Of a stretch of DNA of 32,488 bases, positions 1-31,991 are shown piece by piece. The stretch is taken from the NCBI GenBank assembly GCA_009778385.1, contig WRJX01000090.1, positions 1-32,488 of the forward strand, read 5' to 3'. A program made the position numbers and the translations under genes. This DNA is from Candidatus Bathycorpusculum sp. GTDB taxonomy: Archaea; Thermoproteota; Bathyarchaeia; Bathyarchaeales; Bathycorpusculaceae. The notes beneath the pieces are model-generated. The model ran no database searches and was not told the DNA's origin. It saw only the letters and a list, made by a program, of their open reading frames with translations. Within the stretch, counting starts at the first letter, position 1. Each line of letters begins with the position of its first letter.

Positions 1-3000
1 CATCATAAATAACACTGTACTGATCCTCCAAAACATCTGGAGTACCACTACCATCGCTATCAAAGCCCCAAACAGCAAACACCGTAACACTTGTACCATT
101 AACTATAACATAATTCTCAAACGCAGGAACCAATGCAACATCAGAAGCCCCAAGAACCGCAACCCGAGACAAACTCCAACCCATAAACACAACGGGCACA
201 GAACCAACCGATGGATGAGTCGGACCAGAAACCGACAAAGAAACCTTTGCACCATCCAACAAATTCGTAACATCCGCTGGACCCGTACCCGAATTACCAC
301 CATTCACATCATACGTAACACTGTAATACTGAAGTAATGTTGTGGACCAAGTGGCAGTTAACGTAACATGACCATAAGTACCCTCAGGAATAGTATAACT
401 CTTCTGCAAATCCTCAGATATACCGTTAGTATATGGTTCATTATATGTTACATTCCAACCAAGAAACTCATAGATGCTCATAGGATCAGCAATACTTAGA
501 GGCAAATCGCTATCCTTGTAAGAACGGGGATTATCAGGCGCATTAGTACCATCACCTAACACATAGGTAATATCATACTCAAAAATGTCTGAATTCACCC
601 ATAACGCCGGATAAACAAGCCCTCTTTCACTGGTAGAAATAGCATCTGTTTGGAATTGGAACGCTCTACCGTTGTAGGCTAAAGCTCCTGCAGTATAACT
701 GAACCTACCAGCGGAACGGAGCCACATACCATAACCATAAATCTCAGGTATGGTGATTTTATCAAAGTTTTCAACTGCAAGAGCATTGCTAAGCTGTCCT
801 TCAGGGCTCATGCCATACACATCATGTACGTTGGATAAAAATTCTGCAGATTCACTATAGCTCAGCGCGAAGGCAACATCATTACCTGTACCGACTTGAG
901 TAGAGGTTGGTGTGCTAAACCCATCGCTCAGCGCCTGCGCAGTGGAAGATGTACCAAGAACATTTGACGCATCGTTCTGCATCGTATAACTACGTAAACG
1001 AGCAGTATCACCTAAGTTATCAACAGCAGCTCCAGAGGCGAGGTTATTAAACCAATTGTTAATACCCTCGCGAACCCTGGAACCTATATAATTATTGGAA
1101 GTACCGTAGGCAACATATTGCCAAGTTGGATCACCGCCATGACCACTACCAGCGTAGACATTGAGGTAACTTGTGCGTACAATCAGTGAATAGCCGTCAT
1201 ATCTTGCAATTTCAACCCAATTGACTGTATCACCTGTCAGGTCCGGAGTAAGAATTCTACCGTCACAAACTTCTACAGAAGGAGGGGCATCATCCGGCTT
1301 AATAAACTCAACAACTGCACCAGAGGTCACAAGCTTAGAACCTATATCTGCCGAACTCGGACTACGAATGTAACCCGGCAACACAAAATCAATAGTCTCA
1401 GAAGTAAACGAGGTAATAACAGAGAAAACCTTTGCCTCTCCCTCAGCTACAGAACCAAGACCAACCATAACACCTAGTGTAACATCAAACGGAGCAGGCA
1501 CCCCAACCGTAACAACACCGCCAGACTTAGGATCAGCTGAAAACAGCACATTATTACCAATAATAGCACTGCCAATCCCAGTTAGCTGACCATGGGGCAA
1601 AATAACAAACACAGAATCAACAGCACCAGCATTACCTGTACCAATGTCCTGTGCACCAGCTACACCTCTTGCAGACACAAATGTGCCCTCACCATAAATA
1701 AGAATATTACCACTACCACCACTAGCGCCGCCGCCAATACCAGCACCGCCACCCAAAGAAGGATTAATAGTACTGCTATAGGCAGTCACAGTACCACCAA
1801 AAATAGTAATAACACCACCACTACCACTGGAACCGCCACCAACACCAGCACCACCATAATTGCCAGTGGCAGTTACAGTAGGATCACCAGAAATAGTAAT
1901 AGTACCGCCATTACCACTGGAGCCACCGCCAACACCAGCACCACCGCCAACACCAGTGGCAGTTATAGTGCCACTAGAAATAGTAATAGTACCACCATTA
2001 CCACTGGAACCGCCACCAACACCAGCACCACCAAAACCACCACTATTGGCAGTTACAGTACCGCCGGTAATAACAATATTTCCACCATCACTACCACGGC
2101 CGCCACCAACACCAGCACCATAATTACCACCTCGAGCAGTCAGATCACCACCAGAAATAACAATATGTCCACCACCAGCACCGCCAGAGCCTCCGCCAAC
2201 ACCAGCACCACCATTAGCACCAGTAGCCATCACATCACCACCAGAAATAGTGATGTCACCACCAGAACCACCGAAACCAGCAAAGGAGCCTCCGCCGCCA
2301 ATACCCGCAGCACCACCCATAGCACCATTACCACCAATAGCAGTTACAGTACCATCAGAAATAGTAATAGTACCACCATCACCGCTAGAGCCACCGCCAA
2401 CACCAGCACCACCCCAACCAGAATCACCAACACCGCCAGCACTACCATAAGCATATACAATACCACCAGAAATGTCAATAACACCACCAGAACCACCGTG
2501 GCCACCACCAATACCCGCACCACCGCCAACACCAGTAGCAGTTACAGTACCATCAGAAATAGTAATAGTACCACCATTAGCACCTAGAGAGCCACCGCCA
2601 ACACCAGCACCACCAAAACCACCAGTAGTCTCCACAATACCACCAGAAATGTCAATAACACCACCACTACCATTACGGCCTCCGCCAACACCAGCACCAC
2701 CATCACCACCATTAGCAGACACAATACCACCAGAAATAGAAATAACACCACCAGCTCCATTATAGCCGCCACCAACACCAGCAGCATTATAACCACCAGT
2801 GGCATCTACAGCACCACCCAAAATAGTAATAGCACCAACACTACCACCCATAGAGCCGCCACCAACACCAGCAGCACCCCAACCACCAGTAGCAGTAAGA
2901 GAACCAGAACTCATCTCAGAAACCACAAAAGAGGCCCCAACAGAAACCTCCAAACCCGCACGATTCATACCACTCGTAAGAACACTATCACCCTCAAGCA

Positions 3001-4984
3001 CAACAGTAACAACAGCCCCATCCCCAACCAAAAAAGCACAACCAGCCACAACATCACTTAAATCAACACTAACACCATTCAAAACAACAGTAGCCACCAC
3101 ACCATCAGTAACAACAATACAATCCGTCGAAGAAATAAACGGACTAGAAACAAACGCTGCAGGATTCATAGAAATTCTATACGTACCATCCGACAAAATA
3201 CGCAAAACCTCAGTAGAATAATCCCACGTACCACCATCAGAACTAACAACCACAAAATCCCTCACACCACCAGTAGACTCAAACGCTACAAAAGCACCAA
3301 AAGTCTGAAGCTTAACACCTGTATCAGCTGAACCAGAAACAAGACTATAACCAGACAACGCAAAATCAACAATCTCAGAAGTAAGCGTAGTAATAACAGA
3401 AAACGCTTTAGCACCAACACCAACAGGCTCAGGCCCAACACCAGACATAACCACCAAAGAACCCAAAACACCAAACGGCGAAGGCAACCTAACAACAACA
3501 TCACCAACCGAACCAGGAACAGCAGAAAACACCACATTATACCCAATAGTACCAGCACCAGCACCAATCAAATTACCAACAGGCAAAATAACAAATATAT
3601 CACCATTAACACCACCAACACCTGCACCAATAGTCTCTGCATTAGCCCCACCATTAATTGCAGTCACCCAAGTATTTTCACCATAAACAAGAATAGACCC
3701 GGAACTGCCACCATTGCCGCCACCAATACCAGCACCACCATCACCGCCAGAAGCAGACACAGTACCACCAAAAATAGAAATAACACCACCAGCTCCATTG
3801 TAGCCGCCACCAATACCCGCACCATAACCATCACTAAGAGCAGTCACATCACCACCAGAAATGGAAATAGTTCCACCATTACCATCGTAGCCACCACCAA
3901 TACCAGCACCACCATAACCACCAGTAGCCACCACAACACCATTAGAAATAGTAATAACGCCACCACTACTACCACTGCCACCGCCAATACCAGCAGCCTC
4001 ATCATAACTACCAAGGGCAGTTACAGCACCACCAGAAATAGTGATATCCCAACTAGAACCATGAGAGCCACTACCAATACCAGCACCACCATCACCGCCA
4101 GAAGCAGACACAGTACCACCAGAAATAGTAACAACACCACGGCCATAACCATGAGAGCCTCCGCCAATACCTGCACCACCATCGTCACTACCAGTAGCAG
4201 TTACATCACCACCAGAAATAACAATAGTCCAATCATCATCACACTGAGCACTGCCACCAATACCCGCACCACCACCCTGACCAGTAGCATCCACAGCACC
4301 ACCAGAAATAACAATAACACCACCATCCCAAGCACTGCCACCAATACCCGCACCATCATAACCGCCAGTAGCAGTCACAACACCACCACAAATAGCAATA
4401 TATAGAGCACGATCACCTTGGATGCCACCAATACCCGCAGCATATTCACCGCCAGTAGCAGTCACAACACCACCACAAATAATAACAGACGCACGACTAT
4501 CCCGAGAACTGCCACCAATACCCGCAGCTCCATCTGAACCAACAGCACATAGCTTACCCATGTTTTCTCCAGTAGACTGAGCATAAATCTTCAAAATATT
4601 ATTATTACTATTATAATCAACATCAATACCTCCAGATACAGTCAAATCACAGCCGTCTTTCAAAACAAGACAGACATCCCCGATAATGCCAACTTTTGTT
4701 GAGTAACTAACTTGGCCTTCAACAACATACCAACCATAATCCAGCTCTGTAGGCATATTGTCGGAGTTAATTTCAGTATATGCGCCACTATGTGTTCGCT
4801 GAACGCCAAATTCATCATAATAATCAACCCCGTCTGATGCTGCTGAGGCAGGTAATGTGAAAGTAGGTAACAGCATAATTATAAGAAGGAAAACAACAAA
4901 AACTGCAAGCACACGATTAAACTTATTCAAACTAAAGTCAGAGTTAAAATTTAAACCTAGAACTACATTATTTTTTCGATTCAT
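1..4984 (-). CDS. Giant secreted adhesin-like protein, 3' end outside window
   Basis: The frame from ATG 4984 reads open to the window edge (about 1,660 residues) in every stretch I translated, so the gene is partial at its C-terminus. Residues ~20-48 form a secretion signal with a hydrophobic core, ending near LPASAA. Next come a glycine-rich repeat array (~150-455), a linker (~460-565), a beta-rich segment like the carbohydrate-binding/adhesin domains of gut bacteria (~566-690), a second array (~690-1110) and a second copy of the linker (~1120-1220). A DUF6273-like domain (~1225-1460) follows, recognised by its MWLRSAG and VYPALWVNSD stretches. Then come two InlB-like (Listeria-Bacteroides) repeats ending in ATWS and AVWG, and an Asp-rich DSDGSGTPDVLEDQ motif at the edge that resembles calcium-binding linkers. 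It probably acts outside the cell in attachment. Ligand and anchor are not visible. Domain names come from reading patterns, not a search. Confidence 0.85.
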   Translation of the reverse strand, partial: MNRKNNVVLGLNFNSDFSLNKFNRVLAVFVVFLLIIMLLPTFTLPASAASDGVDYYDEFGVQRTHSGAYTEINSDNMPTELDYGWYVVEGQVSYSTKVGIIGDVCLVLKDGCDLTVSGGIDVDYNSNNNILKIYAQSTGENMGKLCAVGSDGAAGIGGSSRDSRASVIICGGVVTATGGEYAAGIGGIQGDRALYIAICGGVVTATGGYDGAGIGGSAWDGGVIVISGGAVDATGQGGGAGIGGSAQCDDDWTIVISGGDVTATGSDDGGAGIGGGSHGYGRGVVTISGGTVSASGGDGGAGIGSGSHGSSWDITISGGAVTALGSYDEAAGIGGGSGSSGGVITISNGVVVATGGYGGAGIGGGYDGNGGTISISGGDVTALSDGYGAGIGGGYNGAGGVISIFGGTVSASGGDGGAGIGGGNGGSSGSILVYGENTWVTAINGGANAETIGAGVGGVNGDIFVILPVGNLIGAGAGTIGYNVVFSAVPGSVGDVVVRLPSPFGVLGSLVVMSGVGPEPVGVGAKAFSVITTLTSEIVDFALSGYSLVSGSADTGVKLQTFGAFVAFESTGGVRDFVVVSSDGGTWDYSTEVLRILSDGTYRISMNPAAFVSSPFISSTDCIVVTDGVVATVVLNGVSVDLSDVVAGCAFLVGDGAVVTVVLEGDSVLTSGMNRAGLEVSVGASFVVSEMSSGSLTATGGWGAAGVGGGSMGGSVGAITILGGAVDATGGYNAAGVGGGYNGAGGVISISGGIVSANGGDGGAGVGGGRNGSGGVIDISGGIVETTGGFGGAGVGGGSLGANGGTITISDGTVTATGVGGGAGIGGGHGGSGGVIDISGGIVYAYGSAGGVGDSGWGGAGVGGGSSGDGGTITISDGTVTAIGGNGAMGGAAGIGGGGSFAGFGGSGGDITISGGDVMATGANGGAGVGGGSGGAGGGHIVISGGDLTARGGNYGAGVGGGRGSDGGNIVITGGTVTANSGGFGGAGVGGGSSGNGGTITISSGTITATGVGGGAGVGGGSSGNGGTITISGDPTVTATGNYGGAGVGGGSSGSGGVITIFGGTVTAYSSTINPSLGGGAGIGGGASGGSGNILIYGEGTFVSARGVAGAQDIGTGNAGAVDSVFVILPHGQLTGIGSAIIGNNVLFSADPKSGGVVTVGVPAPFDVTLGVMVGLGSVAEGEAKVFSVITSFTSETIDFVLPGYIRSPSSADIGSKLVTSGAVVEFIKPDDAPPSVEVCDGRILTPDLTGDTVNWVEIARYDGYSLIVRTSYLNVYAGSGHGGDPTWQYVAYGTSNNYIGSRVREGINNWFNNLASGAAVDNLGDTARLRSYTMQNDASNVLGTSSTAQALSDGFSTPTSTQVGTGNDVAFALSYSESAEFLSNVHDVYGMSPEGQLSNALAVENFDKITIPEIYGYGMWLRSAGRFSYTAGALAYNGRAFQFQTDAISTSERGLVYPALWVNSDIFEYDITYVLGDGTNAPDNPRSYKDSDLPLSIADPMSIYEFLGWNVTYNEPYTNGISEDLQKSYTIPEGTYGHVTLTATWSTTLLQYYSVTYDVNGGNSGTGPADVTNLLDGAKVSLSVSGPTHPSVGSVPVVFMGWSLSRVAVLGASDVALVPAFENYVIVNGTSVTVFAVWGFDSDGSGTPDVLEDQYSVIYD
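1665..2900 (-). repeat. Glycine-rich in-frame repeat array B of the giant adhesin
   Basis: About 13 units, mostly 28-31 codons long, each with a core like GGAGVGGGS followed by a short strand (ITISGG) and VTATG. Unit cores fall at roughly 90-bp intervals (for example near 2864, 2767, 2683, 2596, 2509, 2302, 2193, 2104 and 2017). The DNA of neighbouring units is very similar, so copy number may vary by recombination and assemblies may collapse here. The pattern suggests a beta-solenoid stalk. Confidence 0.8.
3620..4545 (-). repeat. Glycine-rich in-frame repeat array A of the giant adhesin
   Basis: About ten units of the same type as array B, with cores near 4514, 4427, 4342, 4254, 4165, 4071, 3980, 3894, 3808 and 3721 (spacing 85-94 bp). 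The consensus core is GGAGIGGS followed by IVISGG and VTATG. The unit nearest the N-terminus has Cys in place of Ser in the ICGG strand. The array is coding and in frame with the surrounding gene. Confidence 0.8.
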
Positions 4985-5035
4985 AACAACCACTCTATAG
5001 TCACCATATATCGAAAATAGAAATATTATAAACAG

Positions 5036-5052
5036 ATATATATGCATATATG
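5036..5052 (-). promoter_or_regulatory. Probable TATA region of the giant adhesin
   Basis: An AT-rich run here contains the perfect 14-bp palindrome ATATATGCATATAT (5038-5051), 54 bp upstream of the ATG at 4984. It is the best TATA-like candidate on the minus strand. A second TATA-like stretch (TTTATAATATTT) lies closer to the gene, so the exact box is not certain. Confidence 0.4.
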
Positions 5053-6575: not shown

Positions 6576-6593
6576 TTTTAGGTGTGCCTAAAA
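6576..6593. promoter_or_regulatory. DtxR-type operator 1 upstream of the feo operon
   Basis: TTTTAGGTGTGCCTAAAA: 7-bp perfect arms (TTTTAGG/CCTAAAA) around a 4-bp centre. It matches the TTAGG-n4-CCTAA layout of DtxR/IdeR-family iron boxes. It sits directly upstream of the TATA box, where binding could also block the BRE/TFB contact. Confidence 0.75.
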
Positions 6594-6603
6594 TTTATAT
6601 ATT
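6594..6603 (+). promoter_or_regulatory. TATA box of the feo operon
   Basis: TTTATATATT lies between the two DtxR-type operators. With usual archaeal spacing (about 25 bp) transcription would start near 6622-6627, inside operator 2, leaving a short leader before the regulator's start codon. Confidence 0.65.
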
Positions 6604-6613
6604 CGCATAACTA

Positions 6614-6631
6614 TTTTAGGTTAACCTAAAA
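6614..6631. promoter_or_regulatory. DtxR-type operator 2 over the predicted transcription start
   Basis: TTTTAGGTTAACCTAAAA is a perfect 18-bp palindrome with the same arms as operator 1. The centres of the two sites are 38 bp apart. Its position over the expected transcription start is ideal for repression by the regulator encoded next to it. Confidence 0.8.
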
Positions 6632-6648
6632 ACGGGGTGGAGCAAACA

Positions 6649-7356
6649 TTGCAAAAATCAACCCAGGACTACTTGAAAACAATTTACAGTCTATCCAAAA
6701 ATGGCGAAATAGTAAGTAATACAGACATTTCCCAAAAACTCGATGTCGCACCCCCCAGTGTAACAGAGATGCTAAAAAAACTAGCTGATGAGGGCTACAT
6801 AAAATATTCCCCATACCATGGCAGCACCCTCACCGAAAAAGGTCTAAAAGAAGCACAAAAAATAACCCGAAAACACCGACTACTTGAAAGCTTCCTATCA
6901 AAAATACTATGCATAGGCAACGATAAAGTACATCAGGAAGCTTGCCAAATGGAACACACCCTCTCAGATGAAGCAGAAGAATCCCTTTGCCGCTTCTTAA
7001 AACATCCCGACACATGCCCCGATGATGGCAAAACCATACCTGCCTGCGATCTGCCCTTTTCGAACTGTGAAGAATGCATACAACTACACCAAAAAGGCTT
7101 AGAACAAGTAGGAAAACGCAACAAAAACCTCACCTCCATACGAGACCTAAAAAACGGCACATTTGGCAAAATTAGCTTCATTCGAGGCGAACACAAGGTT
7201 CTTCAACGCCTCTTAGACATGGGACTCACACCTGGAACCAAAATCCAAATTATCAAAGTAGCACCAATGAACGGCCCTGTCGAAATTGCTGTCCGAGGCT
7301 CCAAACTAGCATTAGGACAAAACATTGCTTGCAACGTATTTGTAGAGACAGAATAG
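6649..7356 (+). CDS. DtxR-family iron-dependent repressor fused to FeoA domain
   Basis: 235 residues from a TTG start preceded 6 nt upstream by GGGGTGGAG. GTG at 6637 is in frame but lacks a binding site, and family members usually begin close to the KSTQDYLKTIY stretch. The DtxR winged helix occupies ~1-62. In the dimerisation/metal domain (~63-125), His76, Glu80, His95, Cys99, Glu102 and His103 match the DtxR metal ligands; the Cys in EACQMEH points to an iron-type rather than manganese-type sensor. An SH3-like FeoA domain (~165-235) follows a linker with four cysteines (123, 133, 140, 143). It probably represses its own operon through the two upstream palindromes when Fe(II) is plentiful. 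It is followed 26 bp later by feoB. Confidence 0.9.
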   Translation: MQKSTQDYLKTIYSLSKNGEIVSNTDISQKLDVAPPSVTEMLKKLADEGYIKYSPYHGSTLTEKGLKEAQKITRKHRLLESFLSKILCIGNDKVHQEACQMEHTLSDEAEESLCRFLKHPDTCPDDGKTIPACDLPFSNCEECIQLHQKGLEQVGKRNKNLTSIRDLKNGTFGKISFIRGEHKVLQRLLDMGLTPGTKIQIIKVAPMNGPVEIAVRGSKLALGQNIACNVFVETE

Positions 7357-7382: not shown

Positions 7383-9371
7383 GTGCCCACTCATAAATCT
7401 GATTTAAAAACTAACCCTCCTACATCTGAGTGTGCAAAGTCTGATAAACAGTTTACCTTTGCGCTTGCAGGAAATGCAAATGTAGGTAAAAGTGTAATTT
7501 TTAACCAGTTAACAGGGTCAAACCAGATAATCGGTAACTGGCCAGGAAAAACAGTTGACCGCGCTGAAGGCACACTGAGTTTTGAAGGCCACGAAATCAA
7601 AGTTATCGACTTACCGGGCATTTACTCTTTTTCCACTTTTTCTATGGAAGAAATTGTTTCCCGAGATTACATTGCCCTAGAAAAACCTGATGCTGTTATT
7701 AACATAGTTGATGCCTCCGTTTTAGAACGAAACCTCTTCTTCACACTACAGCTTTTAGAAATGAATGCCCCACTGGTTTTAGTTCTAAATCAGGTAGATG
7801 TTGCAAAAAACAAAGGCATCATAATCAACAAAGATAAGCTCTCAACGCTATTGGGTATTCCGGTAGTTTTTGCTACAGCCACTCGCGGTGAAGGCATATA
7901 TGAAGCTGTAGAGGAAGCTGTAAAGGTTGCGATAAGTAAACCTAAGTCTAAACCGTTAAAATACCGAAAAAACCTTGAAGAACCTATTGAAAAACTACAG
8001 AGCCTAATTGAAAAAGAGAACTTAAATTTGGGATATCCAGCTCGCTGGGTGGCTATCAAACTATTGGAAGGCGACATGGAAATCACCCAACTTGTCGCTG
8101 AAAAATCAAAAACCATCAGTTTACAATCAAAACTTTTAGCAGGTGAACTGGAAAATCGTTGTCAAGAAAAATGTTTTTCAATAATTGCCTCAGAGCGCTA
8201 TGCGCTTGCAAATTCTCTGGTAGCCGCTTCATTAAAACAAGACGAAATACAGCGTTCTTTCACTGACAAACTAGATTGGTTTGCTACACATCGCATATTT
8301 GGTTATGTAACAGCTCTTGGCGTAATTGGCGGTTTGCTACTTTGGACATTTTTTATAGGCAATGGGTTATCCGATTTAATCTCCAAAGGGCTAAACTTAA
8401 TTCAACCAATTAACCCTGAGCTCTCAATGTCCGCACCCCTTCTAAGCATTATTCTTAACGGTTTCTGGGGCGGGTTTAACGCAGGTTTAACATTAATAAT
8501 CCCCTTTGTTATCCCCTTCTATTTACTGTTGGCATTCATAGAAGACTCTGGGTTACTTACTCGTGTTGCTTTTATGATGGATAGTGCAATGCACAAAATC
8601 GGACTCCACGGTAAAGCCTTAATCCCTATAATTCTTGGGTATGGCTGTAGTGTTCCAGCTATTCATAGCTGTAAAATCATGGAAACAAGACGTGAACGTT
8701 TACTTGCCGCCTTTGCCATAACTTTTGCGCCCTGCTCAGCCCGAACTATTGTGCTCTTTGGTATGGTTGGTTTATTTGTAGGTATACACTGGGCACTGCT
8801 TCTCTATGTTGTTAACCTTGCCATAATCTTTGCCATGGGCAGAATCGCCATGAAAGCCGTCCCAGGTAAATCCACGGGCTTAATCATGGAAATGAGCAGT
8901 TTCAAACGCCCCTCCCTAAAAGTTGTCCTAAAACAGACATGGACACGCACAAAATCCATAATATACGTCGTTTTTCCAATATACATAGCCGGCAGCGCAC
9001 TCATACAAGTATTATACATTTATGACATACTTACGCCGATAGGTAATGCACTCTATCCGCTTACCGTTCTATGGTTAGGGTTACCAGCATTTGCAGGTGT
9101 ACTTTTACTGCTTGGTGCTGTTCGCAAAGAATTAATTATCTTAGGTGCTGTGGCAATTCTTGGCACAACAAACTTACTTACAGGCTTTGCTCCCGTACAG
9201 TTAGTGGTTATGGCTCTGGTAGCTATGCTCTATATTCCATGTGTTTCAACAATGGCCATACTTGGCAAAGAATTCGGATGGAAATCAGCCGCCCTAATCT
9301 CACTGGCAAATATTGGTACAGCCCTAATAATTGGAGGCATAGCTTTTCAAATCCTAAACTTTTTTACATAA
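7383..9371 (+). CDS. feoB: Ferrous iron transporter FeoB
   Basis: 662 residues from the GTG at 7383, close to usual FeoB length. The cytoplasmic N-terminal G domain shows G1 GNANVGKS (~30-37), the G2-region GKTVDR, G3 DLPG (~76-79) and G4 NQVD (~136-139). A helical spacer follows, then the polytopic membrane part with two gate regions carrying the conserved cysteines in GYGCSVPA and APCSART. The later GAVRKELIILGA segment is also typical. It imports Fe(II) across the cytoplasmic membrane under GTPase control. It lies in one operon with the DtxR-FeoA regulator, which supplies the FeoA function; no separate FeoA or FeoC is seen. Regulation is through the twin operators upstream of the regulator gene. 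Confidence 0.95.
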   Translation: MPTHKSDLKTNPPTSECAKSDKQFTFALAGNANVGKSVIFNQLTGSNQIIGNWPGKTVDRAEGTLSFEGHEIKVIDLPGIYSFSTFSMEEIVSRDYIALEKPDAVINIVDASVLERNLFFTLQLLEMNAPLVLVLNQVDVAKNKGIIINKDKLSTLLGIPVVFATATRGEGIYEAVEEAVKVAISKPKSKPLKYRKNLEEPIEKLQSLIEKENLNLGYPARWVAIKLLEGDMEITQLVAEKSKTISLQSKLLAGELENRCQEKCFSIIASERYALANSLVAASLKQDEIQRSFTDKLDWFATHRIFGYVTALGVIGGLLLWTFFIGNGLSDLISKGLNLIQPINPELSMSAPLLSIILNGFWGGFNAGLTLIIPFVIPFYLLLAFIEDSGLLTRVAFMMDSAMHKIGLHGKALIPIILGYGCSVPAIHSCKIMETRRERLLAAFAITFAPCSARTIVLFGMVGLFVGIHWALLLYVVNLAIIFAMGRIAMKAVPGKSTGLIMEMSSFKRPSLKVVLKQTWTRTKSIIYVVFPIYIAGSALIQVLYIYDILTPIGNALYPLTVLWLGLPAFAGVLLLLGAVRKELIILGAVAILGTTNLLTGFAPVQLVVMALVAMLYIPCVSTMAILGKEFGWKSAALISLANIGTALIIGGIAFQILNFFT

Positions 9372-9511: not shown

Positions 9512-11029
9512 TTATTTCCATGCTGCCTCGCTTGTGGCATACAGTCGTTCTTCACGACTCATTTTAGATAGTGAGATTACCTTATCAAGTTGTAATCCTA
9601 ACGCTTCGGCAATACGGTGTCCGTATTCTTTGTCTGCAAGGTAGCAGTGTGCGGCATGGCGGTATTTGATATTCTCAGTTACAGAAGCTATGTTTGCTGC
9701 AGTGTTTTTGATTAGTGCAGCTCGTTTATCCTCACTCATAAGGCGGTACAAATCGCCGGGTTGATAGAAGCAATCGTCGTTTATGTATGGATCATGATGA
9801 TCAATAGTACCCTCTATGGCAAGGGACGGTTCAGCATACTCTTTCTGTTCGGTCCATTCATCATAACTGTTTGGATGATAACCTTTTGTTGCACCATAGT
9901 TCCCATCAACACGCATTAACCCGTCTCTATGATAAGAATGTCGGGGACATTTAGATGCGTTAACAGGAATTGAAGTATGATTCACGCCTAAACGGTAACG
10001 TTGGGCATCGCCGTAGGAAAACAACCTACCCTGTAACAGCTTATCAGGGGAGAGACCAATGCCTGAAACAGTATTAGAGGGGTTAAAAGCAGCTTGTTCA
10101 ACATCTGCAAAATAATTCTCAGGATTCCTATTAAGCTCCAATATGCCGACTTCGATTAGCGGATATTCTTTATGACTCCAGACCTTTGTTATATCAAACG
10201 GATTATCCTTGTGCTTTTTAGCCTGCTCTTGAGTCATTATTTGAACATACATCGTCCAACGGGGGTAATCTCCTTGTTCTATGGCATAGAATAAATCATG
10301 CTGTGAGCTTTCTCGGTCTTTTGCGATGAGAGCTTCAGCTTCTTGATCGGAGAGATTTTTAATTCCCTGTTGAGTTCTTAGATGAAACTTTACCCACACC
10401 CGATTATTTTGGGCATCAAATAAGCTATAGGTGTGACTCCCAAAGCCGTGCATATGCCTATAACCGTTGGGTATGCCGCGATCAGACATCACAATTGTAA
10501 CTTGATGAAGTGCTTCAGGTAGCATAGTCCAGAAGTCCCAGTTATTTTGTGCTGAGCGCATATTAGTTTTTGGATCACGCTTTACTGCATGATTAAGATC
10601 AGGAAAATGAATCGGGTCACGGATAAAAAATACTGGCGTATTATTGCCTACTAAATCCCAGTTACCCTCCTCAGTATAGAATTTAATTGCAAAACCGCGG
10701 ATATCCCGTTCAGCATCAGCTGCACCGCGCTCTCCTGCTACTGTGGAAAAACGGACAAAAACCTCTGTTTCCTTACCGATTCCAGAAAACACTTTCGCTT
10801 TTGTGTATTTGGTCACATCTCCTGTAACGGTAAACTTACCAAAAGCACCGCTACCCTTGGCGTGCATTCGTCTCTCAGGAATGACCTCACGGTCAAAATG
10901 CGCCATTTTTTCTAAAAACCAAACGTCCTGCAAAACCATCGGACCACGCGGACCCGCCGTAAGCACGTTAGTGTGATCTGACACTGGGGCCCCGTTTTCT
11001 CGGGTCAACTTTTTCTTATTTTCACTCAT
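9512..11029 (-). CDS. katA: Monofunctional haem catalase (clade 3-like, KatA type)
   Basis: 505 residues, the usual length of small-subunit catalases. The distal haem residue His56 ([12 protein letters not shown]), the [11 protein letters not shown] asparagine (129/130) and the proximal haem ligand Tyr339 ([12 protein letters not shown]) are all present, with no truncation or frameshift. It breaks down hydrogen peroxide in the cytoplasm and needs haem. The protein reads like bacterial catalases, so transfer from bacteria is likely (inference). No DtxR-type palindrome is seen upstream, so it does not appear to share the feo operators. It lies tail-to-tail with feoB, 140 bp away. Confidence 0.95.
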
Positions 11030-13017: not shown

Positions 13018-13224
13018 TCATACCACATTATAGCCTTCATCGGTAATTGCTTTCTTAAGTTCAATGGAAGAGATTAAATCGGAATTAAAGTCTAAGCAGA
13101 CCGTTTTTGTTGCCAAATCGACTTTAACGTTAAATACGCCCTTCAATTCTGATAGGGCTGTTGTAATAGCACGGACACAATGTTCACAGGACATTCCTTC
13201 AACTGTTAGTTTAATTGTTTCCAT
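13018..13224 (-). CDS. copZ: Copper chaperone CopZ-like HMA protein
   Basis: 68 residues forming a single heavy-metal-associated domain with the metal site GMSCEHC and the usual beta-alpha-beta ending in DEGYNVV. It probably carries Cu(I) to the ATPase encoded just upstream. Its ATG overlaps the stop codon of copA in the form TAATG, so the two are translationally coupled. Confidence 0.9.
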   Translation of the reverse strand: METIKLTVEGMSCEHCVRAITTALSELKGVFNVKVDLATKTVCLDFNSDLISSIELKKAITDEGYNVV

Positions 13225-15365
13225 TATATTTTTGCTCCTTTCAATCTAAGTGCATTTAGTACTACAGATACTGATGATAAACTCATAGCCGCTGCCGCAA
13301 AAATCGGAGTTAGCAGTGGACCACCAAACATGTATAGCATTCCTGCGGCCACGGGTATTCCTACAGTGTTATATCCAAAGGCCCAAAATAAATTTTGCTT
13401 AATGTTGCGTATAGTTGCGCGGCTTAGGTTTATTGCCATGGGTACCGTCATTAAGTCACTTTTCATTAGAACAATAGTTGCGCTTTCCATGGCGACATCG
13501 GTACCGCTTCCAATGGCTATGCCTATGTCGGCTTGTGCAAGCGCTGGTGCATCGTTAATACCGTCACCGACCATAGCTACTTTGCGGCCCTCCTGTTGTA
13601 GTTTCTTAATTTCATTTGCCTTATCTTGCGGTAGCACTTCCGCAAAAAACTTGTCAATACCTACTTGCTTTGCAATTGCCTCCGCAGTTTCTTTATTGTC
13701 ACCTGTAATCATTACAGTTTCAATACCCATGCTCTTGAGTTTTTTAATAACGCTATAACTACTTGTTTTCGGCTTATCAGAAACAACAATACGCCCCACG
13801 TATTTGCCGTCAACTAAAACAGTAATACCTCGCCTAATCTCAACTTTCTTACCCTCAATTAGACCCTCAACACCCTGTCCGACTACCGCCTTAAAATCAC
13901 TAACCTCCAAATACGGGCCCGTATAATAATTACAAATCGCCCTTGCAATAGGATGCTCAGAATACCGCTCTAACGATGCTGCAAGCTGTAACACATCCCC
14001 CTCAACTGCTGTCACCTCCGGCTTTCCCTCAGTTATTGTACCGGTCTTATCAAATACAACGGTATCAGTTTTATGCAAAGCCTCAAGAGCCTCACCACTT
14101 TTAATCAAAATACCGTTCTCCGCACCCTTACCCATACCCACCATAAGCGCAGTTGGCGTAGCAAGCCCCAAAGCACAGGGACAGGCAATAACCAGCACCG
14201 AGACCAATATAGTCAACGCAAACGCCACATCACGCATTACAATAAACCAGGTGAGTCCACTGAGTAATGCAATGCCTAATACAACGGGCACAAAATAGCT
14301 ACTTACAACATCTGCCAGTTTGGCAATAGGGGCCTTAGAGTTCTGCGCAGTCTCAACTAACTTGATAATCTGCGCCAACGCGGTATCTGCACCTATTTTG
14401 TCTGCACGAAATTTAATTGAACCTGTAGTGTTTATCGTCGCAGCAAATACGCTATCCCCCTCTTTTTTATCAACAGGCATACTTTCGCCAGTTAACGCAC
14501 TTTCATCAATGGAAGTACTACCTGATACAACTGTGCCGTCAACAGGAATTTTACCCCCGGGCTTAACTATTATTATGTCACCAATTTTAACGTCTTCAAG
14601 GGGTACTTCTTGCTCTATTCCGTCTACAAGTGTTGTTGCTGCTTTTGGCGCAAGTCCCATAAGCTTTTTAATCGCCCCACGGGCACGTCCTTTTGAAACC
14701 GCTTCAAGAGATTTCCCAAGTAAAACCAACGTTATAATTACACCTGCAGATTCAAAGTATAAGTGCTCCACGAACACAAAATTACCTTGTATAATTTGAT
14801 ATACCGCATATAAGCTATATAACATCGCTACTGAGGTTCCAATAGCAATGAGACTGTCCATATTTGGAGAGCGCAGCCATATTGCACGGAAACCTACCAC
14901 ATAAAAACGGTACCCTACAATAACAATTGGGATAACAAGCATAACTTGGATCAATGCGAAGTTAAGTGGATAATGCATAGGATGAAGTAATTCGGGCAAT
15001 GGTAAATGCCAACCAAACGGCAACATGTGTCCCATAGCAACATACAACAAGGGCAGACTAAACACAGCTGACACGAGAAATTTGATCCACAACGTTTTGA
15101 TTTCTTTCTCTTTACGCAGTTTATCCTCATCAACAATATCGCTCTTAATTTCCGCCCAATTATACCCAAGTTTTTCAATCGTTTTTTTGATAGTATCTAA
15201 ATCTGTTTTTACTGAGTCAAACTCAACAGTCATACGCTCGGTAGCCAAATTCACGCTACAGCTTTCTACACCGTCTATTTTACCTACTGACCTCTCAACA
15301 CGTGCAGAACACGCAGCACAGGTCATACCTATTATCTTAAGCGAGGCTTTACGGATATTTGTCAT
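13224..15365 (-). CDS. copA: Cu(I)-exporting P1B-1 ATPase CopA
   Basis: 713 residues. One N-terminal HMA domain with MTCAAC (Cys16/Cys19), then eight predicted membrane helices. TGES (292-295) marks the actuator domain, CPC (395-397) the transmembrane metal site, DKTGT starts at Asp439 (phosphorylated), SEHPIA gives the P1B His-Pro pair, and [12 protein letters not shown] the hinge. YN in the seventh helix (FGYNTVGIP) and MSLSS in the eighth identify the Cu(I)-specific P1B-1 group. It pumps Cu(I) out of the cytoplasm using ATP. It forms an operon with copZ. No copper-sensor regulator gene (CopR/CopY type) is next to it. Confidence 0.95.
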
Positions 15366-26708: not shown

Positions 26709-29700
26709 CTATACGAGGTAGCAGGCGCGTATTTGGGTGTTGCCTTTGGTGTCTACGTATACCTTGTAGGAGCCAACGGTGTATGTGTCTGCCGCATTGT
26801 TATTGATACTAAAAGTCTGCGAAATGACGTTTGTTGTTCCATCGGAAAACTTTTCTGTAATAGTGATCGTTAAATCGTTCTTGTTACCATTGAGTTGCTT
26901 AACAAAAGCTTCAGGAGTTACACTGACAACTTTTACAGCAGGCAACACATAACCAGAATCAACATAGTACTGCAAATAATACGACTCAAGCTGACCAGGA
27001 GTAGTGAAATCATCATAACCAACAACCGCACCGTAATCAAACGCAAACGAAGCAGAACCACTAGTCACACACACTAAACCATGCATAAGACCACCTCGCG
27101 CCACCCAATCAGCATACGCCGCATCAACAGCAACCCAATCAATCAAATCACCCTCATTCAACGTCTGCCAATAGAAAGAAGTACTCAACACCGCATCACC
27201 AAACATATAGTACCCAATAAACCCAACGGGTTTAACAACTGATACAACAGGAACATACTGATCATTTACAATAGTCACAGTGATTACTTGACCATTCGCC
27301 GAAATTGTAAGCACAATCTGTTGCCAATCATTAGTCTTTACAGCATCAACATAAGAATACTCACCAGTATAACCAACCCCAGACACCCAAGTCTTAGCAC
27401 CATCCAAAACTACACCATCAAACACTACTGCTTTTCCATCCATAACAGCAACAACATTTTCAATAGCAACCGGATACGAGAACCAAACACGGAAAAAGCC
27501 ACCCAAATCATACACATTTGCAAAAAGCTCAGGAACCTCCTTCAGCTTAAGAACAGCCTTCATATCAGCAACAGCTTGCGTTAGTATATCAGTTCCTTCT
27601 TTAACAGCAGCTACATCGTCAGTTTCATCAAAACGCCCAACAGAAAGCTTACCATACGCAGCCAACAAGTCTGCATGGGCTTGACCTGCAGAGTTCATAA
27701 TTGCTTCAGCTTCCACAACAGATTCATCAGTATAACCAGCAAACAGGTCTTTACGGAATTGCCAAGTTGCAGTATCGTAATAGGAGCTAAACTCATCATG
27801 TGCAACATCATAAAATGTCATGTCAACCCTAAGGACTGCCTTCATATCATCAATTGCACCATTAAGAATTCTAGTTCCTTCTACAATAGCATCTACAGGG
27901 TCAGCTTCATCAAAACGCCCAACAGAAAGCTTACCATACGCAGCCAACAAGTCTGCATGAGCCTGACCAGCAGCACCCATAATCCCTTCAGCCTTAAGAA
28001 CTGAATCAACCGTATAACCAACAAACAAATCCCTACGGAACTGCCAATTCAAAGTATTATAGTATGAACTAAAGTCAGCATGTGCCTTGTTATAAGCCAT
28101 TATAACATCATCTGAAACGGCTTCGCGAGTTACGGAGATTGTATAGGTTTTCATTTCACCATTTTCAGCGGTTACGATAACATCAAAGCTATTTTTGCCA
28201 ACTTGAAGGATTTTCATTCCCGCACCAAATACCGTCGCTTTCACATCAGTAGCCACAGCAAAGATTTCAACACCATCAACAGCATATGGAACAGAAACAG
28301 CATAACTCAATTCCTCAGGATCAAACATAGGAACAAGTACACCCACACTAACAGAAAGCTCAGAAAGCGTCGCAACATCAGACACCAATGAAATCCCGCC
28401 TACAACAGCCCAATCAGACTCATAAACATCAGGATGATTCCCACTACCATCACCAATCAGAATAGTCGCATCTGCCTCATAAAACTCACCAGACACTACC
28501 ACCCAAACACTGGAAACATCAGGGAAACCCTCTACTGACAAAACACCACTGGAATCAAAAACCCAATCAAGCTCTATCACATGATTCCGAGGCCCAGCAC
28601 CCCACGGAAACGCCATAACAGTACGAATATGCACCTCAGAACCCACATACGAAATTTCCGAATCATCCAAAGACACAACCGACTCAGAAACCCGCCCCAA
28701 TCTTTCATGCTCAACCACAATATAGAGCCCATTAGGAACAACAACACCAGCATCAGTCATCAAAGTCTCCGCAAAAAAGGCCTCAATAGTTACTGACGCC
28801 TCAGCTGTAGGCACATACCAATAAGCCAACGCCATACGACCAGAACCACTATAAGGCCCCGCCTCACGAGTCACAGTAAGTACATACTCTAACTGACAAC
28901 CATTCTCCGCAGTCACAACAATAACAAACCTATTCAGACCAACAACAAGCTCTTGCACACCAAAATCACCAGTCACTTTTGCATTCACATCAGTAGGCAC
29001 AGCAACAATCTCAACACAATCAACATCATACGCAACATCAACACTATACACCAAAGTCAAAGGATCAAACCCAGAAAGCAACACACCATCAACAGAAAGC
29101 TCAGAAAGCGTCGCAACATCAGACACCAAAACATTCACCATGACGTTAAATGCGACGGTTTGCGTCACGCCACCCTCGGTATAGCTAACTCTAACAAGTT
29201 GTACACCAACCTCATCAAGAACTGTACCATCTATCGGATCCGTTGTATAATCTAAAACTTGTTTTGTGTTTCCGTTACTGTATGTGGCAATCACAACCAA
29301 ACCGTCAAGATCAAGAACCTCATCTTTAACGTACGCCGTCTTAAAAGGAGATTCAGTAACCTCAAGACCTGTAAGCACAACTAATTTGAAATTCGCTGTA
29401 ACAGTCACCGATTCCGCAGGCATAACAAAAGTGGTAGCAACACTAGAATCATCCTCAAAACCAACCGCAGCAGAACTCGCCACCCAACTCTCAAACTCAG
29501 AACCCTTCGGAGCAACACCAGCATAGACACCCACAGTCTCACCAGCCACAAAACTACCACTACCTATCGTACCCGTTCCATCACTCACAACCACAACTGG
29601 ATAAAGCACAACAGGCACCGTAGACCTCCCAACAACAGCCCATTCAGACTGATAAACCGAACTATGAGGAGGACCACCAGTCCCAATTTGAATATCCGCA

Positions 29701-31979
29701 TCCGCCACATAGAACTCACCAGACCCTGACACCCAAACACCAGAATAGCCAACATAACCATCTAATGACGAACCAGACTCCAAATCAAAAGTCCAATCAA
29801 GAGTTATCAGGTGATTCCTGTCTGAACTAACCCATGGAAAAGACATCGTAGTAACAACATGCACTTGAGAACCATCCCGCGAAAGCTCTGAATCACTTAA
29901 AGATATTACCGCCTCAGAAGTCCGCCCCATCCCCAAATGGACAACTCTAACATAAAGCCCATTCGAAATAACGTCACCACCAGCAAACTCCAACTGCTCC
30001 GCAAAAACAGCATCAATAATCACTGTCGGCTCAACCCAACGAGCCATCGCAACCTGAACAACCTCCGACACTAACTGCCAACCTGCAAACAAAGTAACAT
30101 CCTCAGCAATTGGCATATCAAAATCAAACGCTACTTCTGCACCAGCATCTTCAAACCAACCAAGGAACTCATAACCTTCCCGCACCGGATTATCAGGTCT
30201 CTCCACAGTAGCACCATTAGCAACAGGCACCTCATCAGCATCAGGAGCACCAACATAATTATAATCAAACGTCACCACAAATATTGTAGATATTGGTGTC
30301 CAGTTCGCTGTGGCAACAACATTTTTTGCGGGCATTCTGAAAATTGAAGTTTGGCTATTTAGATTTATTATACCCATGCCACCAGTCACATCAAATTCCC
30401 ACCCAGAGAATGTGTAACCTTCTCGGATTCCAGCGTTTATGGTGACAAAATCGTCTTCTAGGTAGTTGCCTGTGCCGGATAATTCTGCGTAGCTGTCATG
30501 TACAGTTACAGTGTAGTGGTCTCTAAGTGGTAAAAAGTCGGTGACGTAGCTGATGTCATAATTGTTGTATCCCTGTTGTAGAGGTTCAGTCCAAGTGGTA
30601 GCAAATATGTGTGTGTTATACGCATCGTCATAATCGGGATCTCTGTCGGTGGCTGTAGAGGCTTGGTTTCTTTCAAACACCATATCAGCACGAACAAATA
30701 ACTTGTCAAAATCATCTGTACTAAGCCAAATACCACCACCATCACTCACTGCAGTGTTATCCGAAATTACACCATCAATCAAATCTGCGAGGTAAAACAT
30801 CTGAAGATATAAACCACCCCCACAATCAGCGGTGTTATACGAGATCTCACCACCAAACATACTAAAAAAAACACCAAAATGAGCCACACCACCGCCACCA
30901 AGTTCAGCGGTGTTATAAGCAATCATTGCATCGCCCTTCATCTCAAAATTACCCATATTGACCACACCACCACCAAGTTCAGCGGTGTTATACGAGATCT
31001 CACCACCAAACATACTAAAAATACCAGCACAATTATACACACCACCACCAAGTTCAGCGGTGTTATACGAGATCTCACCACCAAACATATCAAAAGAATC
31101 CGCAAGAACCACCTCAGTAACACTATCCAAACTTACACCACTGACATCAGTAGCATACACACCACCCCCATAACGAGCATTATTATTCGAAATCACACCA
31201 CCAAACATACTAAAAGAACCATGATAGTTACACACACCACCACCCAAGCCCTGATCACCATATGCGGCATTATTTGAGATCTCACCACCAAACATATCAA
31301 AAGTACCTAACATATTGCACACACCACCACCCTGACTAGGCATAAAAGCAAAAAGTCCAGTACCAGCAAAAACATTATTGTCTGAAATTATGCCACCATA
31401 CATATCAAATGTGCCCTCGTTATACACACCAGCCCCATAAAACCCATAAATCATACTACCACCTGCAAGTATATACTCCATATTGACAGTAATTGTGTTA
31501 CCTGAAATTTTGCCATCAACCATAACAAGTTCACCACCAGAATTAACAATCACACCATTACCAATAGCTCCATTGTTATGAGTTACAACAATACCAGCCA
31601 AAGTCAATACTCCATGATCCTCAACCACAATAGTGGCCTTATTAGATGGGCCGATCAATTTAAAAAATTCATCACCATCAGCATCACTCATCAAAACAAT
31701 ATTTTTGTCAGCAGGAATTCTAAGCATCTCTACAAGTGCAATATCTTGAAGAAAAACAATACCCGTAGGCACACCATTGTCTGCATTATTGATAGCACCT
31801 TGAAGTTCCTCTGCAGTTCTAACATGTACATAAACATTCACTAAAGAAGAATCATCAGCTCTTGCCATCAACACACAAGAAGATACACAAGAAATCAACA
31901 ACACAAACAATAAAGAAACACACAACAAACTTTTACGGAGACCATGTAACTTAAAGTTGGAATTTAATAAACTTACCAT
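26709..31979 (-). CDS. Giant secreted adhesin-like protein with PMP-like beta-helix
   Basis: About 1,756 residues from the ATG at 31979, which has AGGTG 9 nt upstream; in-frame ATG 31985 and GTG 31991 are too close to that site. Numbering here is from the GTG. Signal peptide to ~45 (LMARA). A beta-helix with PMP-like units (GGGVYN, FSMFGGEISYNTAE) spans ~145-430. InlB-like repeats lie at ~492-565 and ~570-638. A recurring ~145-residue domain occurs at 646-790 and 1053-1198. Another InlB/bacterial-repeat domain (~798-868) and an Ig-like domain (~870-955) lie between them. Cadherin-like sandwiches occur at ~957-1045 and ~1203-1293. Two 94-residue helical repeats span ~1299-1486. The C-terminal ~270 residues are beta-rich and end without a membrane anchor. 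It is likely an extracellular adhesin; target and attachment are unknown. Confidence 0.88.
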   Translation of the reverse strand: MVSLLNSNFKLHGLRKSLLCVSLLFVLLISCVSSCVLMARADDSSLVNVYVHVRTAEELQGAINNADNGVPTGIVFLQDIALVEMLRIPADKNIVLMSDADGDEFFKLIGPSNKATIVVEDHGVLTLAGIVVTHNNGAIGNGVIVNSGGELVMVDGKISGNTITVNMEYILAGGSMIYGFYGAGVYNEGTFDMYGGIISDNNVFAGTGLFAFMPSQGGGVCNMLGTFDMFGGEISNNAAYGDQGLGGGVCNYHGSFSMFGGVISNNNARYGGGVYATDVSGVSLDSVTEVVLADSFDMFGGEISYNTAELGGGVYNCAGIFSMFGGEISYNTAELGGGVVNMGNFEMKGDAMIAYNTAELGGGGVAHFGVFFSMFGGEISYNTADCGGGLYLQMFYLADLIDGVISDNTAVSDGGGIWLSTDDFDKLFVRADMVFERNQASTATDRDPDYDDAYNTHIFATTWTEPLQQGYNNYDISYVTDFLPLRDHYTVTVHDSYAELSGTGNYLEDDFVTINAGIREGYTFSGWEFDVTGGMGIINLNSQTSIFRMPAKNVVATANWTPISTIFVVTFDYNYVGAPDADEVPVANGATVERPDNPVREGYEFLGWFEDAGAEVAFDFDMPIAEDVTLFAGWQLVSEVVQVAMARWVEPTVIIDAVFAEQLEFAGGDVISNGLYVRVVHLGMGRTSEAVISLSDSELSRDGSQVHVVTTMSFPWVSSDRNHLITLDWTFDLESGSSLDGYVGYSGVWVSGSGEFYVADADIQIGTGGPPHSSVYQSEWAVVGRSTVPVVLYPVVVVSDGTGTIGSGSFVAGETVGVYAGVAPKGSEFESWVASSAAVGFEDDSSVATTFVMPAESVTVTANFKLVVLTGLEVTESPFKTAYVKDEVLDLDGLVVIATYSNGNTKQVLDYTTDPIDGTVLDEVGVQLVRVSYTEGGVTQTVAFNVMVNVLVSDVATLSELSVDGVLLSGFDPLTLVYSVDVAYDVDCVEIVAVPTDVNAKVTGDFGVQELVVGLNRFVIVVTAENGCQLEYVLTVTREAGPYSGSGRMALAYWYVPTAEASVTIEAFFAETLMTDAGVVVPNGLYIVVEHERLGRVSESVVSLDDSEISYVGSEVHIRTVMAFPWGAGPRNHVIELDWVFDSSGVLSVEGFPDVSSVWVVVSGEFYEADATILIGDGSGNHPDVYESDWAVVGGISLVSDVATLSELSVSVGVLVPMFDPEELSYAVSVPYAVDGVEIFAVATDVKATVFGAGMKILQVGKNSFDVIVTAENGEMKTYTISVTREAVSDDVIMAYNKAHADFSSYYNTLNWQFRRDLFVGYTVDSVLKAEGIMGAAGQAHADLLAAYGKLSVGRFDEADPVDAIVEGTRILNGAIDDMKAVLRVDMTFYDVAHDEFSSYYDTATWQFRKDLFAGYTDESVVEAEAIMNSAGQAHADLLAAYGKLSVGRFDETDDVAAVKEGTDILTQAVADMKAVLKLKEVPELFANVYDLGGFFRVWFSYPVAIENVVAVMDGKAVVFDGVVLDGAKTWVSGVGYTGEYSYVDAVKTNDWQQIVLTISANGQVITVTIVNDQYVPVVSVVKPVGFIGYYMFGDAVLSTSFYWQTLNEGDLIDWVAVDAAYADWVARGGLMHGLVCVTSGSASFAFDYGAVVGYDDFTTPGQLESYYLQYYVDSGYVLPAVKVVSVTPEAFVKQLNGNKNDLTITITEKFSDGTTNVISQTFSINNNAADTYTVGSYKVYVDTKGNTQIRACYLV
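27624..27959 (-). repeat. Helical repeat pair with 54-bp identical DNA
   Basis: 27624-27677 and 27906-27959 are identical over 54 bp and 282 bp (94 codons) apart. They encode the shared AHADLLAAYGKLSVGRF stretch of the two helical modules, which are clearly less alike elsewhere. Confidence 0.85.
30965..31089 (-). repeat. Beta-helix repeats with 50-bp identical DNA
   Basis: 30965-31014 and 31040-31089 are identical over 50 bp at a 75-bp (25-codon) step. A third, partial copy (AGCGGTGTTATACGAGATCT onward) lies near 30830. They encode the GGEISYNTAELGGG unit. Confidence 0.85.
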
Positions 31980-31991
31980 TGACATATACAC

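Follow-up and report, generated by a model that had tools for sequence, protein, structure and literature searches.

The window, by which we mean the whole 32,488-nucleotide stretch of DNA analyzed here, is contig 90 of a 2.18-Mb genome (97.7% complete) from a termite-gut archaeon. Its nearest named relatives are Candidatus Bathycorpusculum MAGs, in which the regulator described below is 86-90% identical, which places the genome in the Bathyarchaeia, and the genus has been recorded from arthropod guts (PMC10684969). The locus of interest carries a gene for a DtxR-type regulator followed, after a gap of 26 bp, by feoB (Table 1); the two genes probably share one operon, and the same gene order was found in the relatives whose flanks were examined for feoB. 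The first-pass annotation had read a DtxR protein fused to FeoA downstream of two palindromes, and the domain matches bear this out: a DtxR N-terminal domain (PF01325, 80.8 bits), a dimerisation domain (PF02742, 95.1 bits) and a C-terminal FeoA domain (PF04023), with FeoB_N, FeoB_Cyto, Gate and FeoB_C domains in the product of the next gene. The start codon of dtxR-feoA is likely TTG 6649, since a related locus (L016) has ATG at the same codon, and this TTG comes after a GGGGTGG; the longer frame from GTG 6637 is less probable. A structural model of the regulator (pLDDT 87 overall) was weaker in a four-cysteine linker discussed below; its PDB matches were SloR, IdeR and ScaR, and the fold is also like that of DtxR.

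Table 1. Features of the dtxR-feoA-feoB locus (window coordinates).
Feature	Position	Strand	Basis
Operator box 1 TTTTAGGTGTGCCTAAAA (core TTAGGYNNRCCTAA)	6576..6593		Exact match; kept in 36/36 orthologous promoters, distance to TATA fixed
TATA box TTTATATA	6594..6601	+	Sequence; TTTAWW between the boxes in 36/36 promoters
Operator box 2 TTTTAGGTTAACCTAAAA	6614..6631		Exact match; covers predicted transcription start
Probable Shine-Dalgarno GGGGTGG for TTG 6649	6634..6640	+	Sequence
dtxR-feoA, 235 aa from TTG 6649	6649..7356	+	PF01325, PF02742 and PF04023 all over cut-off
feoB, ferrous-iron-type GTPase transporter	7383..9371	+	TIGR00437 540.6 bits vs cut-off 315.65

Several other genes in the window deserve a brief description. 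A haem catalase gene (9512-11029, minus strand) is convergent with feoB in a host expected to be an anaerobic gut archaeon, and a P1B-type metal ATPase with an HMA domain (13224-15365, minus) lies near feo, with no DtxR box before the gene. At one end of the window, positions 2-5047 (minus) encode a repetitive protein of more than 1680 aa with beta-helix repeats and 87-90 bp DNA repeats, probably a surface protein, that runs off the contig; positions 26709-31991 (minus) encode a 1760-aa protein with InlB-type B-repeats and cadherin-like domains that is likely a surface adhesin-like protein. An Rfam search of the window found no riboswitch and two tRNAs only.

Upstream of dtxR-feoA, the two identical-armed 18-mers claimed by the first-pass annotation, TTTTAGGtgtgCCTAAAA and TTTTAGGttaaCCTAAAA, are present with zero mismatches and lie 38 bp apart, start to start and centre to centre, leaving a gap of 20 bp. 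They also flank the TATA box as described: box 1 adjoins it on the upstream side, covering the expected BRE, and the expected transcription start (near 6624, TATA centre + 26.5 bp) falls within box 2. Both boxes contain an exact match to the half-site TTAGGNNNNCCTAA, the consensus for binding of a single IdeR dimer (PMC8464063). The classical 19-bp DtxR box TTAGGTTAGSCTAACCTAA, with four half-repeats for two dimers, is not matched, as each box has two half-repeats only, and the 19-bp pattern breaks off outside the 14-letter core.

Palindromes of this kind might arise by chance in an AT-rich promoter, and this promoter is AT-rich; we compared the boxes with shuffled sequence and with orthologous promoters. 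The window has two matches at up to two mismatches compared to 0.21 expected from shuffles, and the exact 18-mer occurred in none of 200 shuffled windows. Both boxes were found in all 14 Bathyarchaeia loci recovered by protein search. A class-wide protein search, with duplicates removed and regulator identity of at least 60%, gave 36 distinct orthologous promoters, and every one carried the boxes (two in 33, three in 3), counts that are not those of independent events because the orthologues are related by descent. In contrast, shuffled promoters had at least one box in 0.8% of trials and two boxes in 0% (first-order Markov, 10,800 trials). Between promoters, the arms were 93% identical, compared to 42-52% for the spacer tetranucleotides, 32% for the upstream flank and 30% for the stretch between the boxes. 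Thus, conservation of this sequence refutes a chance origin, to which we assign a negligible probability. The spacer is constrained at its ends, its first base being a pyrimidine in 68/68 exact boxes and its last a purine in 66/68, and therefore the operator is best written as TTAGGYNNRCCTAA. A tblastn search of plasmids returned relatives below 60% identity only. Among Bathyarchaeia orthologues at 40-52% identity, most promoters have a single box, before or after the TATA box, or two boxes 24-25 bp apart; since many have only the one, two boxes are not essential to the scheme.

Across the 36 promoters, each box keeps its place at one element of the core promoter. In all of them the TATA box begins 2-3 bp past the end of core 1 (0-1 bp past the 18-mer), and the predicted start lies at most about 6 bp from the centre of box 2, which itself begins 19-30 bp after TATA. 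Box 1 is therefore tied to the TATA box and BRE, and box 2 to the start. The outer spacing of the boxes, however, ranged from 36 to 47 bp (modes 40 and 41). The first-pass annotation had suggested that the 38-bp spacing, about 3.6 turns, might allow cooperative binding; since the spacing drifts over this range with no constant helical phase, cooperativity that depends on phase is unsupported as a general rule and we rejected it. A regular step, of 20-22 bp, was seen only in the three promoters (L054, L086 and L089) that have an additional box covering TATA itself, and in eight promoters the TATA box has the form TTTATTAGG, which contains a half-site.

We considered that only box 2 might be a repressor operator, with box 1 serving as an activator site or as the BRE itself. 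The fixed distance between box 1 and TATA in 36/36 promoters would suit an element that TFB recognises, and the CCTAAAA arm ends A-rich, in a manner that appears BRE-like. However, both arms of the palindrome and its Y..R spacer are kept in box 1 just as in box 2, which would be needless for a BRE alone, and in some other orders (L106, L108 and L109) a lone box lies upstream of TATA. Thus, we regard a purely activating or BRE function of box 1 as improbable, and take both boxes to be putative operators.

If the boxes are bound by the regulator encoded next to them, box type might be expected to follow the recognition helix. We compared the two in 95 distinct homologues, scoring a box as present with at most one mismatch; 11 of these fell in neither of two helix classes. 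Regulators with a P-x-S-[VIL]-T-[EQ]-M helix had TTAGGnnnnCCTAA upstream in 63 of 65 cases and TACGAnnnnTCGTA in none, whereas those with a [GSA][TS][VIL]TN helix had TACGAnnnnTCGTA upstream in 19 of 19 and the first box in none. The association, 63 versus 19 with no crossover among 82 regulators, is strong (Fisher 5e-19, without correction for relatedness). Thus, box type tracks the recognition helix, which ties the box to the protein. The 19 regulators of the second class belong to a second DtxR clade in the phylum (L135-L141, L207-L213, L219 and L220), in which TACGAnnnnTCGTA is the operator upstream of the regulator's own gene.

The first-pass annotation had proposed a genome scan to define the regulon, and reasoned that a palindrome frequent at unrelated positions would speak against its reading. 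This is not the case: every exact copy in the genome lies at feo, as do nearly all copies in the family. The exact 18-mer has three copies in the genome, and a fourth site has one mismatch; all four are at two feo operons, two here and two (C82:22126 and 22167) at another such operon. The fifth and last site at up to one mismatch lies within a nitroreductase-like ORF. Of 91 genomes in the family, 42 contain TTTAGGYNNRCCTAAA one or more times, while a reversed-pattern control gave one match each in 2 genomes. Sites away from this operon lie within ORFs in G129, G138, G173, G217 and G220, and between ORFs unrelated to feo in G172 and G207:C337; in G017 the core lies between an Nramp-like ORF (identified by ORF reading, with no profile search) and a DtxR homologue. 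We also considered a wider regulon and rejected it, as the other sites at up to two mismatches that were examined (about 15 were left out) are in ORFs or beside genes without an evident link to metals. From this distribution across the genome and the family, the regulon seems limited to feo and the regulator dedicated to it.

The second dtxR-feoA/feoB operon (C82:22126-24930) shares 79% DNA identity with the first over 2.8 kb. Relative to the first copy, its reading frame is lost within the FeoA domain, leaving an open frame of 190 aa with the domain continuing in another frame, and the feoB of this copy carries both a stop codon in frame and a frame change; its twin operators are intact. Because three lesions fall in one operon, they point to a copy in decay, with errors in the draft assembly also possible. 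A glycine hydroxymethyltransferase-like gene neighbours this second operon. In another genome (L190, about 1987 of G097:C6), a box lies beside a glycine hydroxymethyltransferase-like gene without a feo operon there, and is possibly a relic of a lost operon copy.

The residues predicted to bind the metal bear on the choice of iron as the signal in the first-pass annotation. The regulator has D11, H80, E84, H99, C103, E106 and H107 (numbered from the GTG start), which match the family ligands of DtxR (M/D10, H79, E83, H98, C/E102, E105 and H106); the last six are present in 36/36 orthologues and the Asp in 34/36. Compared to the Met10 and Cys102 of the IdeR/DtxR iron branch, the Cys is present and the Met is replaced by Asp, whereas the manganese regulators SloR and ScaR have Asp and Glu at these positions. 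The primary site is thus a mixed Asp/Cys/Glu/His set, the same as in P. gingivalis MntR, which binds DNA more strongly with Mn(II) and more weakly with Fe(II) (PMC4805248).

These residues make a serious rival of a regulator that represses its own operon in the same way but responds to Mn(II) or to the Fe/Mn balance, with FeoB as a manganese or mixed transporter. PgMntR shares the ligand set and a FeoA-domain C-terminus, and the FeoB homologue encoded in its operon, FB2, is a characterised manganese transporter (PMC4805248). Moreover, the manganese regulators SloR, ScaR and DR2539 are among the nearest relatives of known structure, by sequence and by fold (the best PDB relatives by sequence being manganese regulators), we found no Nramp gene in the genome as an alternative metal route that might supply manganese, and the G017 core adjoins its Nramp-like ORF, as read from the ORF. 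On the other hand, FeoB proteins are mostly ferrous transporters, the genome's two FeoB loci both belong to these operons and one is decayed, so that iron would otherwise have no Feo route, and the Cys that replaces the manganese-type Glu at a key position is an iron-type residue. The Asp at position 10 is a weak guide alone, since orthologues at 40-52% identity have Glu there. Because the transporter is of the FeoB type and the genome has no FeoB locus besides the two feo operons, we favor iron, as Fe(II), as the likely effector, and consider a manganese response distinctly less probable but worth serious attention.

The FeoA domain raises a second possible function for the regulator. The genome has only two FeoA domains, both in the two dtxR-feoA genes. 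Across the genus, the domain was found in 28 of 32 genomes, and was the C-terminus of DtxR wherever the frame was followed; for 25 of the 28 we saw no FeoA gene apart from it. Extra matches, in short frames, occurred in G009, G154 and G207 only, and in G009 and G154 they form a FeoA pair adjoining another FeoB. In G225, the gene after DtxR-FeoA encodes a stand-alone FeoA. Work on a fused bacterial system found that FeoA lowers the rate at which FeoB hydrolyses GTP (PMC8980893); DtxR-FeoA fusions are widespread rather than peculiar to this archaeon, and that study had to remove them from its data set. We also noted a Cys4 linker, CPDD..C..C..C (window 7015-7080), between the dimerisation and FeoA domains. 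Its cysteines C123, C133, C140 and C143 (numbered from the TTG start) are invariant in a 58-sequence alignment, and three of the four are mostly absent in divergent homologues at 27-40% identity. Because no separate FeoA gene was seen in 25 of 28 genomes, the regulator might also act as a transporter subunit, binding and tuning FeoB as FeoA does, and it might hold a second sensor in a Cys4 zinc or Fe-S centre; we consider this combination rather unlikely. If it were true, the Cys4 centre would give repression a second input.

Taken with the conservation, geometry and regulator-operator co-variation, autorepression of feo, as first suggested, is a well-supported inference. We think it very probable that each box is an operator of the DtxR/IdeR type for one dimer of DtxR-FeoA, the product of the same operon, which would shut off dtxR-feoA-feoB when metal is replete. 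The sequence, conservation and geometry of the boxes, their co-variation with the regulator and their restriction to feo are observed; binding, repression, the metal and the blocked step we infer as follows. Metal-loaded DtxR-FeoA, most likely with Fe(II), would place one dimer on each box, that on box 1 next to TATA and over the TFB-recognition element and that on box 2 covering the start. Loading of TFB and RNA polymerase would be blocked and the operon silenced; under metal scarcity the apo-protein would leave, allowing FeoB and the regulator to be made. The regulon would be essentially this one operon.

Operators at TATA or the start, and autoregulation, are reportedly also features of the archaeal DtxR Feo regulons and of Archaeoglobus MDR1. 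Those regulons (Leyn and Rodionov 2015), as described in papers that cite them (PMC10317159; PMC11349517), likewise place metal uptake under a metal-dependent DtxR protein, as does MDR1, with which RNA polymerase is reported to be blocked while TBP and TFB remain bound (PMC2995911). Compared to these, the system here belongs to a Bathyarchaeia clade and has two boxes locked to TATA and start. Actinobacterial IdeR/DtxR (PMC8464063) shares the three-domain architecture, the half-site and a Cys-x-x-Glu-His metal motif, but has a 19-bp box for two dimers, compared to 14 bp per dimer here, and Met rather than Asp as its first metal residue; IdeR lacks the Cys4 linker and controls many genes, whereas the Bathycorpusculum regulator has the linker and apparently controls one operon. 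PgMntR resembles our regulator in its Asp/Cys/Glu/His site, FeoA C-terminus and FeoB in the same operon, but has two FeoA domains, responds to manganese and is bacterial (PMC4805248). SloR of S. mutans also uses several palindromes per promoter at sloABC and mntH, one covering a core promoter element, and cooperative binding is reported; unlike our regulator, it is a manganese regulator with another operator sequence at a bacterial promoter (PMC12096823).

Thus, this well-conserved and very probably self-regulated archaeal feo operon is of a kind already known, and is new in this lineage; its operator and geometry are now defined more sharply than the first-pass annotation allowed. The locus gives an operator and its cognate regulator for an uncultured archaeal class, at well-defined positions with respect to TATA and the start, which makes the transcription step blocked by each operator directly testable. 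The Asp/Cys site is a good test case for metal response, and the two operator codes matching two helix types form a ready set in which to study change in DtxR specificity.
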